A DNA stretch of 64,000 nt, from contig JASBSR010000015.1 of assembly GCA_030148865.1 (NCBI GenBank), positions 1-64,000 of the forward strand, given 5' to 3'. Within the stretch, counting starts at the first letter, position 1; each line of letters begins with the position of its first letter. The notes below the pieces were generated by a model, which saw only the letters and a list, made by a program, of their open reading frames with translations, ran no database searches and was not told the DNA's origin. The stretch is from Gammaproteobacteria bacterium. Its GTDB lineage: Bacteria; Pseudomonadota; Gammaproteobacteria; SZUA-229. Shown piece after piece: positions 26,837 to 44,725 of the stretch. Made by a program: the position numbers and the translations under genes.

Positions 26837-27541
26837 ATGGCTACAGAAAACGCAGCACAAAATGTTGCGCTAATTGCGCGCCCAGAAATGGTGCTGATCG
26901 ATGTTGACGGCACCCTGGTCGATAGCGTGCCCGATCTTGCCTACTGTGTAGACGAAATGCTGAAACAGCTGGGCCTGCCGGTGCGTGGTGAACAACGTGT
27001 ACGGCACTGGGTGGGCAATGGCGTCGAGCGTCTGGTACAGCGTGCGCTGATCAATCAGCTCGATGGTATGCCGGAGGATGATCTTTATCGGCGTGCACTG
27101 CCGATTTTTCGCGAACTTTACAGCGCGAACACTTCGAAGCGCAGCAGTCTGTACGAAGGTGTTAGTGAAGCGCTGGAATTTCTCCAGACCACCGGTGTGA
27201 AAACTGGCTGCGTCACCAACAAGGCCAGCGAATTCACGCTGCCGATTTTGCGCGATCTTGGCATTGCGGATTATTTCGAGCTGGTGATCTGTGGTGACAT
27301 GGTCGAAAAGAAAAAACCCGACCCGATGCCGTTGTTGCAGGCCGCCGAGCAACTCGGTGTTAAGCCCGGGCATTCACTGATGTTGGGTGATTCGATGAGC
27401 GACGTAAAAGCGGCGCGCGCTGCCGGTTTTGGCATTATCTGTATGTCCTACGGCTACAATCACGGCGAAGATATCCGCAGTTATAATCCTGACGCGGTGA
27501 TCGATTCGATGGCCGAGATTAAGCAGTTGATTTCATGGTAG
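26837..27541 (+). CDS. gph: phosphoglycolate phosphatase
   Basis: A 234-residue HAD-superfamily hydrolase with the nucleophile motif IDVDGTLVDS, the TNKAS motif and the acidic LGDSMSDVKAA loop. It dephosphorylates 2-phosphoglycolate, the product of RuBisCO oxygenation, which makes it directly useful in this autotroph. The start at 26837 is chosen from family length; a long upstream extension would overlap rpe. It probably shares a transcript with rpe. Confidence 0.94.
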   Translation: MATENAAQNVALIARPEMVLIDVDGTLVDSVPDLAYCVDEMLKQLGLPVRGEQRVRHWVGNGVERLVQRALINQLDGMPEDDLYRRALPIFRELYSANTSKRSSLYEGVSEALEFLQTTGVKTGCVTNKASEFTLPILRDLGIADYFELVICGDMVEKKKPDPMPLLQAAEQLGVKPGHSLMLGDSMSDVKAARAAGFGIICMSYGYNHGEDIRSYNPDAVIDSMAEIKQLISW

Positions 27542-27604
27542 ACAGGCCTGGTAGGCAGCGATCTCACGCGACGACAGGATTCATTTCGGCTACACTGGAA
27601 CACT

Positions 27605-27661
27605 ATGAACACGTTTTCCAGGCAGCAGGTTAGAGCAGTGAATCTCGCATGGCGATGGTGA
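27605..27661 (+). CDS. trpL: candidate trp leader peptide
   Basis: An 18-codon ORF ending Ala-Trp-Arg-Trp-stop, two Trp codons within its last three, lies 58 bases upstream of trpE. A weak GGA ribosome site precedes the ATG. The last codons sit in a hairpin (AATCTC/GAGATT, 27641-27665), and a second GC-rich hairpin follows at 27672-27692. This is the layout of a transcription-attenuation leader in which ribosome stalling at Trp codons controls operon read-through. It is too short for standard gene calling. Confidence 0.65.
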   Translation: MNTFSRQQVRAVNLAWRW

Positions 27662-27671
27662 GATTGAGTAA

Positions 27672-27698
27672 GCGCGCATTGCTAATGCGCGTATTGTT
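27672..27698 (+). promoter_or_regulatory. candidate trp attenuator hairpin
   Basis: CGCGCATT-GCT-AATGCGCG forms an 8-base perfect stem (plus a G-T pair) 10 bases after the leader peptide stop, followed by ATTGTTG rather than a clean T run. It would be the terminator or, given the poor T run, a pausing structure upstream of trpE. Confidence 0.55.
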
Positions 27699-27719
27699 GC
27701 CCTGACACTGGAAAACGCC

Positions 27720-29228
27720 ATGAGCCCCAAAGCCCCAAAGCCGACAGCACAAACAGAGACTCCACAACCACTGCGCAAACGTGTGGCTATGGTGCGTGAA
27801 GTCCTCGCCGATCTCGATACCCCGCTGAGCACCTACCTCAAGCTCGCCAATGCACCGTATTCCTATTTGTTTGAATCGGTGCACGGTGGTGAAAAATGGG
27901 GTCGTTATTCGATCATCGGTCTGCCCTGTCGCGAACGCCTGAAAGTATTTAACCGCAACATCATCATCGAAAAAGATGACGAAGTGGTTGAGCGTTTGCA
28001 GGTTGATGACCCACTCGAATTTATCAGCGAATTTCAGGCGCGCTATCAGGTGCAGGAACACGATGGTCTGCCCAGATTCACCGGTGGCCTGGTCGGTTAT
28101 TTTGGATACGAGACGATACGGTATATCGAACCACGTCTCGATAGTGACAATAAGCCTGATCCTTTAGGTACGCCCGATATTCTATTAATGGTGTCGGAAG
28201 AAGTTGTGGTCTTCGACAATCTTTCCGGCCAGCTCTATATTATTGTGCACGTCGCTGCCGACGATGATAAAGCTGCGGCTGCCGGCGAAAAACGCTTACA
28301 GACAATCGAGCACAAACTACGTAACAAAGTCATCGAACCGCCCGCGCACGAAATCCAGCGCGTCAAAGAATCGGACTTTGTCTCCGGCTTTACTGAGGAT
28401 GGTTATAAAGCCGCTGTTGCCAGGGCACGCGAATATATTATCGATGGCGATGTCATGCAGGTGGTGCTGTCGCAACGGCTGACGGTTCCTTTTAGTGCAC
28501 GACCATTAGAGCTCTATCGCGCGCTGCGCAACCTCAATCCGTCACCGTATATGTATTATCTCGATCTCGGGGATCATCATGTGGTGGGTTCATCACCGGA
28601 AATTCTGGTGCGTCTGGAAGACAATCAGGTGACCGTGCGCCCAATTGCTGGCACCCGTCCGCGTGGCAAGGATGAAGCTACAGATCGCGCGCTGGAAACA
28701 GAACTACTCGCCGACCCGAAAGAACTGGCCGAGCATTTAATGCTGATCGACCTCGGTCGTAATGATGCTGGTCGTGTCAGTGAAATCGGCAGTGTCAAGC
28801 TCACCGAAAAAATGCTGGTCGAACGTTATTCGCATGTCATGCATATTGTGTCCAATGTGATCGGTGAATTAAAACCCGGACAGAATGCGATGGACGTGTT
28901 GCGCGCTACCTTTCCGGCAGGCACTGTGAGCGGTGCGCCCAAAATTCGTGCCATGGAAATCATCAACCAACTGGAACCGGTGAAGCGCGGGATTTATTCC
29001 GGCGCGGTGGGGTATTTATCGTGGAATGGCAACATGGACACCGCGATCGCGATTCGTACTGCTGTGATCAAAGATGGCCGGCTCTCAATCCAGGCCGGTG
29101 CCGGGGTTGTCTACGATTCAGTTCCACAGAACGAATGGGACGAAACCATGAACAAGGGGCGTGCCATTTTTCGCGCGGTCAGTAAGGCCGAGGCCGGGCT
29201 CGATAATCCCTTGCAGGAACACCGATGA
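27720..29228 (+). CDS. trpE: anthranilate synthase component I
   Basis: A 502-residue chorismate-utilising enzyme. The N-terminal domain has the regulatory [15 protein letters not shown] stretch associated with Trp feedback binding; the C-terminal catalytic domain has [31 protein letters not shown] and [18 protein letters not shown]. It converts chorismate and ammonia to anthranilate with TrpG. It is preceded by a candidate Trp-rich leader. Its stop overlaps the start of the TIGR03790 gene by four bases, so that gene is in the trp operon. Confidence 0.97.
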
Positions 29229-30244
29229 AAGCCGGTGCTGTCGTCATCCTGCTCGGCTGGGCTCTGAGCCAGAATGTGTTTGCCGTTGGCGCAAACCAGC
29301 TCGCCGTGGTCTACAACAAAGCCGACCCGGAGAGCCGTGCACTCGCTGTTTATTATCAGCAGCAACGCCATATTCCGCAAAAAAACATGATCGCGATAGA
29401 GTTGCCACTGGGGCAGGCGAGCATCAATCGCCGGGAATTTGCCCGCGTTTACGCCGAAGTGCAGGCAGCCACGCCCGCAGTGGTTGAGTTTTATGCACTG
29501 GCCTGGAGCAAACCCTATCGTGCTGCCTGCATGTCGATCACCAGTGCTTTTGCGTTTGGTTTTGATACAAAATATTGTGCCCAGGGCTGTGCGGCGACAG
29601 CACCCAGTGAGTATTTTAATAGCGACAGCCAGCATCCGTATGCCGATTTTAAAATTCGCCCGGCGATGTTGCTTGCCGGTGGTTCGCTGCAACAGGTGAA
29701 AGTGACAATCGACCGCGGCGTGCGTGCTGATTATAGTTTGCCGAAGGCGACAGCATATTTATTGAGTACCAGTGACCGTGCGCGCAACGCACGTGCTTTT
29801 ATTTATCCGGAAGTGGTGGTGCAGCTTGGTAATCGCCTGCCCGTGCAGATACTTAAATTAGATACGCTAAAAAATAAACCTGATGTGATGTTCTACTTTA
29901 CGGGCCTGAAATCGGTCGATGAAATCACCAGCAATACTTTTGTTGCAGGCGCGATTGCTGATCATCTGACGTCCACGGGCGGTAACTTATTCGGCGGCAG
30001 TCAGATGAGTATTTTGCGCTGGCTGGACGCTGGTGCGACAGCGAGTTATGGCACGGTGGTCGAACCCTGCGCGTTCCCGCAAAAATTCCCCAACCCCGGC
30101 ATTGTGATTGACCGTTATACTCGCGGTGAAAATTTAATCGAAGCCTACTGGAAAAGTGTGCAATGGCCGGGTCAGGGCGTGTTCGTCGGCGAGCCGCTGG
30201 CAGCACCTTACCAGCATGCTGGTAAAGTCAGGCACGAGCCATAG
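29225..30244 (+). CDS. TIGR03790-family secreted protein within the trp operon
   Basis: A 339-residue protein with a signal peptide ([18 protein letters not shown]). The N-terminal [13 protein letters not shown] and [14 protein letters not shown] segments and the central [11 protein letters not shown] and C-terminal [16 protein letters not shown] match the TIGR03790 family of uncharacterised proteins. No function is known. The ATG overlaps the trpE stop as ATGA, so translation is coupled, and trpG begins 38 bases later. It is the only gene in this operon without an obvious link to tryptophan. Confidence 0.8.
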
Positions 30245-37671: not shown

Positions 37672-37745
37672 TGGGGAATCGTCTAACGGCAGGACAACGG
37701 ACTCTGACTCCGTCAATCTAGGTTCAAATCCTAGTTCCCCAGCCA
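37672..37745 (+). tRNA. tRNA-Gln (CTG anticodon)
   Basis: A 74-base cloverleaf with acceptor arms TGGGGAA/TTCCCCA, anticodon arm ACGGA-CTCTGAC-TCCGT with anticodon CTG, T loop GGTTCAAATCC and encoded CCA. It closely resembles E. coli tRNA-Gln. A terminator follows within six bases, so it is a single transcript. Confidence 0.95.
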
Positions 37746-44528: not shown

Positions 44529-44538
44529 GAATTCAGAG

Positions 44539-44725
44539 GTGTCTCCAGAATGCCGTAGCTGTAATGCTGACCTTGAACCGGAGGTTCAGGTGGGACCGCT
44601 CGTTAGCGTTTAAGGCTTCCCGCACCAGGCGGTAATGCACACCGCGCCAACAGGGGCGTTCCCGGGGTCAGTATTTAAGGCTCAAGGGATATTGCAATAA
44701 AGCTTACGCACACCCCAGAGACACC
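44539..44725 (-). ncRNA. ssrS: 6S RNA
   Basis: The minus strand has complementary ends (GGTGTCTC...GGAGACACC), a central asymmetric bubble and the conserved TGAGCCTTAAATACT and GAAGCCTTAAAC stretches, then a CACCTGAACCTCCGGTTCAAGGTC segment as in gammaproteobacterial 6S. It binds the sigma-70 RNA polymerase in stationary phase. Location between zapA and ygfA is the canonical place. Exact ends are estimated. Confidence 0.93.

Follow-up and report, generated by a model that had tools for sequence, protein, structure and literature searches.

Control of the trp genes by attenuation is the textbook case of regulation through premature transcription termination. In the ermC and cat translational attenuators, a ribosome stalled on the leader uncovers a sequestered Shine-Dalgarno (SD) sequence, and the inducer is an antibiotic. 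The ermC leader is described as controlling translation. In Escherichia coli (trpL) and Sinorhizobium meliloti (trpL-trpE(G)), a short leader ORF with Trp codons precedes trpE and a choice is made between a terminator and an antiterminator (PMC7298713). In Actinobacteria, the LEU element before leuA includes a leader ORF that pairs with the SD of its own gene, the run of Leu codons itself taking part in the pairing and a pseudoknot being involved. Its authors favor a protein-binding site and deem attenuation by leader translation unlikely (PMC1262725). The polycysteine leaderless short ORFs of mycobacteria reportedly sense Cys and attenuate the downstream operon (Canestrari 2020).

The trpE leader analyzed here resembles the E. 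coli and S. meliloti systems in its short ORF with Trp codons, but differs in that its leader RNA base-pairs with the SD of trpE and no conserved terminator was found. It shares the pairing of the leader ORF with the SD of its own gene with the LEU element, which is the nearest printed idea found; here, however, the codons ahead of the Trp codons pair. As in ermC and cat, a ribosome stalled on the leader would free the SD, but the inducing signal would be the amino-acid supply instead of an antibiotic. The likeness to the polycysteine ORFs would lie in a possibly leaderless ORF that responds to an amino acid and attenuates the downstream operon, whereas amino acid and phylum differ. A literature search, which covered few subscription papers and is therefore weak evidence of novelty, returned no description of this arrangement of trpE leader and SD. 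Rfam covariance models, that of the Trp leader among them, gave no match for the leader at the gathering score, and a search to E 10 across positions 27400–27900 returned only mir-5366 and mcrA, both far below their cut-offs.

The window, meaning the whole 64,000-nucleotide stretch of gammaproteobacterial DNA that was analyzed, carries rpe (26137), gph (26837), the leader ORF, trpE (27720), a gene of the TIGR03790 family, trpG, trpD and trpC. An 18-codon ORF ending in Trp-Arg-Trp-stop before trpE had been read from the sequence, and it lies exactly where it was placed. It occupies 27605–27661 on the + strand (ATG at 27605, TGA at 27659–27661) and encodes MNTFSRQQVRAVNLAWRW. Its Trp codons 16 and 18 (27650–27652 and 27656–27658) enclose a CGA Arg codon (27653–27655), and together these are the putative sensor codons (27650–27658, + strand). 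The regulated gene, trpE, encodes anthranilate synthase component I (27720–29228, + strand; TIGR00564, 586 bits, cut-off 517.7). The TIGR03790-family gene between trpE and trpG (29225–30244, + strand, 246 bits) begins with a four-base overlap (ATGA) with the trpE stop, which suggests that its product is tied into the trp operon by translational coupling. Elsewhere, the window holds a 6S RNA (RF00013, 92.6 bits, 44538–44724, − strand) and a tRNA-Gln(CTG) at 37672–37745.

The sequence-only reading had proposed comparing the leader among related genomes. Of the 46 loci examined in the family to which the window belongs (L001–L031, L048, L049 and L131–L143, the window being L001), 42 have a similar leader upstream of trpE, and the Trp codons are conserved. 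Three of the remaining loci are cut by contig ends (L019, L134 and L138), and one (L024) lacks a leader. In the genome concerned (G008, loci L024/L050), enough upstream sequence is available and no leader ORF was found before trpE, an apparent loss of the attenuator. The family leaders are 13–24 codons long (16–20 codons in 39 of the 42), and both the last and the third-last codon are Trp in 31. A short conserved ORF with codons for the amino acid of the pathway is thus situated just before trpE, as expected of a Trp leader peptide attenuator in the broad sense.

Similar leaders are found well beyond the family. We assembled 94 trpE upstream regions, one per gammaproteobacterial family and with the window's family excluded, from the matches listed in a search of 276 genomes of the class and from earlier relatives; 93 of them have a start codon. 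A W-rich short ORF precedes trpE in 33 of these 93 representatives, compared with 32 of 1860 shuffles, which rules out a chance ORF. A second rule, which asks for CGA-TGG close to where a short ORF ends, picks out a leader in 42 of the 93 (0.6 expected), 28 of them already in the W-rich set and 14 new. A recognized CGA-TGG leader is missing in the other 51 representatives, and 46 regions have neither type. The class leaders end in various ways, such as WRG, RWW, RW, RWCS and WRWFH. The leader is also present at 29 of the 67 loci taken from public genomes with titles, including those of Candidatus Thiodiazotropha endolucinida and Spongiibacter thalassae. Compared over 100 nt, none of these 67 regions is identical to a family region, and one, L097, which has no such leader, is identical to L198 of the class set. 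Conservation thus gives strong support to a leader peptide with Trp codons upstream of trpE. Three loci (L063, L078 and L170) have leaders of the KKQMKERW type located 102–147 nt from trpE, the usual distance being 40–75 nt. Two of them, L063 and L170, pair well with the trpE start region despite the greater distance.

The mRNA may start at or near the leader ATG in part of the family. In 20 of the 42 family leaders, the hexamer that most resembles a −10 box stands exactly 6 nt upstream of the ATG, which suggests transcription from the ATG in those loci. Such a start would resemble that of the S. meliloti rnTrpL, which begins at the trpL ATG (PMC7298713). The window itself matches more poorly: its possible −10 box, TACACT (27591–27596, + strand), stands 8 nt before the ATG, as would fit a near-leaderless mRNA. 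The spacing signal is absent from the 42 class leaders, so that a leaderless promoter is suggested within the window's family.

In the minimum free energy (MFE) fold of the window, the beginning of the leader ORF pairs with the trpE ribosome-binding site. Ten uninterrupted pairs join leader codons 3–6 (27612–27621, the anti-SD strand) to 27708–27717, which contains the trpE SD CUGGAA, both on the + strand. The SD positions pair with the leader with a mean probability of 0.85. The helix is extended inward by a 5′ strand at 27626–27639 (+ strand; pairs 27626–27629/27701–27704 and 27634–27639/27693–27698). The two hairpins noticed earlier in the sequence do appear in the fold, at 27641–27665 over the Trp codons and stop and at 27672–27692 with a weak T tail (both + strand), but only as inner branches of this larger structure. 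In two groups of relatives, the consensus structure does not contain the first of them. Taken alone, the window is modestly unusual (fold z −2.57, with 6 of 200 shuffles as good; leader/SD duplex z −2.43), and the significance rests on comparison. A further stem, between the Trp codons and the sequence after the stop (GGCGAU with AUCGUC-like partners), was rejected. Its mean z was −0.46 in the family and −0.42 in the class, and the motif was only weakly enriched (23/42 and 25/42, against 18.5 and 18.8 expected), so that we left it out of the parts of the system. Four of 42 class leaders have the exact CCATCG downstream, where 0.56 would be expected; it is real in a few of them without being general.

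The helix is maintained across genera that spell it with different letters, for example as AUUUAUCCGG with CCGGAUAAAU in L031. We compared duplexes of the first 36 nt of each leader with trpE positions −32 to +6, for native and for swapped partners, in 20000 permutations. Native duplexes averaged −20.3 kcal/mol in the family, swapped ones −13.8, and none of the 20000 permutations did as well. The result was the same for 32 class leaders from separate families (the 33 W-rich leaders minus L190), with −26.2 against −16.9 and 0/20000, GC correction included. It also held for the 14 leaders newly found by the CGA-TGG rule alone (−26.6 against −17.8, 0/20000) and for the 29 loci of named genomes (−24.3 against −15.7, 0/20000). 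Individually, the duplex z falls below −2 in 32 of 42 family and 20 of 32 class leaders; among the ten family leaders above −2, five have weak or absent helices (L013, L015, L020, L021 and L028).

Expressed as a distance from the permutations, the pairing of leader and SD stands at −10.9 sd for the family set and, for the class set (42 other gammaproteobacterial families), at −15.3 sd, while three control pairings range from 0.0 to −3.2 sd overall. Two controls in the family depart from zero, the leader with trpE codons 5–17 (−3.2 sd) and the reversed leader with the SD (−2.7 sd), which may come from relatedness or composition. The class set, with one genome per family and controls between −0.7 and −1.6 sd, is the stronger test.

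Covariation points in the same direction. An alignment of 15 sequences including the window (A2) covers 13 pairs of the helix. Of its cells, 95.4% are paired, and 5 of the 13 pairs changed on both sides, a number reached in 9 of 500 shuffles. The covariation score is 0.314, compared with 0.010–0.075 for slid partners and 0/500 shuffles, and the number of pair types shows no excess (10, against 10.1 in shuffles). In a 12-member alignment of one genus (A1), the helix is formed and nearly invariant, with a double change in 1 of 25 pairs. Counting pairs to the GG of the SD did not separate native from swapped leaders (39/42 native, permuted mean 35.6, maximum 42); it is only the energy of the full helix and covariation that tell them apart. 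The trpE SD is sequestered by leader RNA in a pairing that covariation shows to be conserved, as expected of a translational attenuator.

The codon pair CGA-UGG is an unexpected nucleotide signature that recurs among these leaders. Of the 40 family leaders that have RW, 39 use CGA for the Arg ahead of the final Trp, as do 28 of 32 class leaders. In the scan of the 93 class representatives that gave 42 CGA-TGG leaders, the other five Arg codons were found before TGG 5, 4, 2, 0 and 0 times. Within the six window genes trpE, trpG, trpD, trpC, rpe and gph, CGA accounts for 6 of 102 Arg codons. The bases following CGA-UGG in the 42 class leaders are a pyrimidine in all 42 and then G in 40, and this Y-G is kept whatever its meaning as a codon (stop, Arg, Trp or Cys). 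A constraint or signal at the RNA level within the motif is therefore possible. Mainly from work in yeast, CGA is known to be decoded by inosine wobble pairing and to delay the codon that follows. We infer that CGA slows the decoding of the Trp codon that follows it. A DNA pattern based on the spacing between CGA-UGG and SD was tried phylum-wide and rejected as too unspecific (96 of 120 genomes matched, often several times each).

The leader had first been proposed as a candidate Trp-attenuation leader, which implied transcription termination of the classical kind. In classical attenuation, 27672–27692 would be a weak intrinsic terminator and stalling at the Trp codons would favor an antiterminator. 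The conserved Trp-codon leader of the first proposal stands, whereas termination at the second hairpin does not find support. A standard scan of 27400–27800 calls no terminator between leader and trpE, its only site being inside gph; under looser settings, the second hairpin with its tail TATTGTTG is picked up, and the T run, which had been called poor, has 5 T in 8. Terminator-like sites are present in 4 of 42 family leaders, the borderline site of the window included, which is an excess over mononucleotide shuffles (27 of 840). With 4 of 32 in the class leaders as well, they are nevertheless scarce, and no conserved intrinsic terminator emerges between leader and trpE. The Trp codons can pair over 8 bp with an arm and the loop of the second hairpin (UGGCGAUG with CAUUGCUA, −10.0 kcal/mol, z −1.5). 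Moreover, trpE of Pseudomonas putida is reportedly under attenuation (Olekhnovich and Gussin 2001), which we counted in favor. On the other hand, 44–84 nt separate the leader stop from the trpE start in the family, and it is the SD, not a terminator, on which the conserved helix with its covariation ends. Altogether, we regard classical attenuation as unlikely, and the earlier suspicion of an unusual mechanism looks right, given that terminator-like sites are few and that a covarying helix lies over the ribosome-binding site of trpE. A terminator-type variant possibly exists in the contig of Zhongshania antarctica (L109), judged from its sequence. There, a WRW leader comes without the SD helix (z 0.2), and in the region from about 110 nt before trpE onward, ATGGTAG, with which the leader ends, could pair with a CTACCAT that has TTTT after it, still ahead of trpE.

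Leader translation could instead act on the untranslated stretch, by controlling mRNA decay or termination by Rho there, and the helix would then play an accessory role. An mRNA whose ribosome-binding site is hidden can become exposed to Rho, as described for the E. coli topAI leader (PMC12121999). That covariation sits on the ribosome-binding site itself speaks against this explanation, to which we give little credence, although it is compatible with a translational attenuator and both could act at once. Very improbable, in our view, is a nascent-chain arrest peptide ending in WRW that senses free Trp rather than Trp-tRNA. TnaC is such an arrest peptide and senses free Trp. The recurrence of Trp at the last and third-last positions would fit, as would that of CGA-UGG at the nucleotide level. 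Against it, the variable upstream residues and the diverse ends of the class leaders indicate that there is no fixed peptide facing the tunnel, and a ribosome arrested when Trp is high would open trpE just when its product is not needed.

We consider it likely that the leader is a Trp-sensing translational attenuator, in which the trpE start is masked by leader RNA until ribosomes held at the Trp codons expose it. Because the first part of the leader ORF is complementary to the trpE ribosome-binding site, the SD would be buried in the helix of the resting RNA and trpE would be poorly translated. When Trp-tRNA is scarce, ribosomes would halt at the Trp codons near the leader end, and the halted ribosome and a queued follower would cover the 5′ strand of the helix and open the trpE SD. 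With plentiful Trp, ribosomes would run off and the helix would re-form. In this scheme, ribosome occupancy would drive the switch, starvation would be the inducer, and a queue would be needed.

The proposed need for a queue comes from equilibrium folding with imposed ribosome footprints, from which the probability of an unpaired SD was computed. In the family, this probability averages 0.18 in free RNA and barely rises with a single ribosome at the first Trp codon (0.22), the last Trp codon (0.21) or the stop codon (0.21), compared with 0.58 for a stalled and a queued ribosome. The class means are 0.33 free, 0.35 for each of the three single-ribosome positions and 0.46 queued. This model suggests that most family leaders require a second, queued ribosome. 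Some short leaders open with one ribosome (L007 from 0.24 to 0.44, L041 from 0.21 to 0.52, L208 from 0.10 to 0.64), and a few are less open when stalled, for example L163 and L177. Since equilibrium folding ignores kinetics and some class start codons are uncertain, the queue is a prediction and not a result. Several observations weigh against the translational attenuator: the slight effect of a single stalled ribosome, the family helices that are weak or absent, the lack of excess pair types in A2 and of double changes in A1, the terminator-like sites in excess of shuffles, and the 51 class representatives in which no CGA-TGG leader was recognized.

More tentatively, and with somewhat less than even confidence, we envisage an ancient, class-wide translational Trp attenuator that combines a two-ribosome queue with CGA-UGG as a hypersensitive sensor of Trp-tRNA, and on which many lineages without a terminator-based leader would chiefly rely for trp control. 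There, the inosine-decoded Arg codon would probably sit in the P site awaiting Trp-tRNA. This raises the questions of whether a ribosome queue can serve as a switch, and whether the codon before a sensor codon is tuned for a sharper stall. Thanks to its CGA-UGG signature and its covarying helix, the system can be searched for by sequence, and these features would account for leaders without terminators. The sensor is of the known Trp leader kind, and its output likely differs, being control of trpE translation in many families of the class. In many other Gammaproteobacteria, too, the Trp-codon sensor would thus be wired to a different output, the access of ribosomes to trpE.
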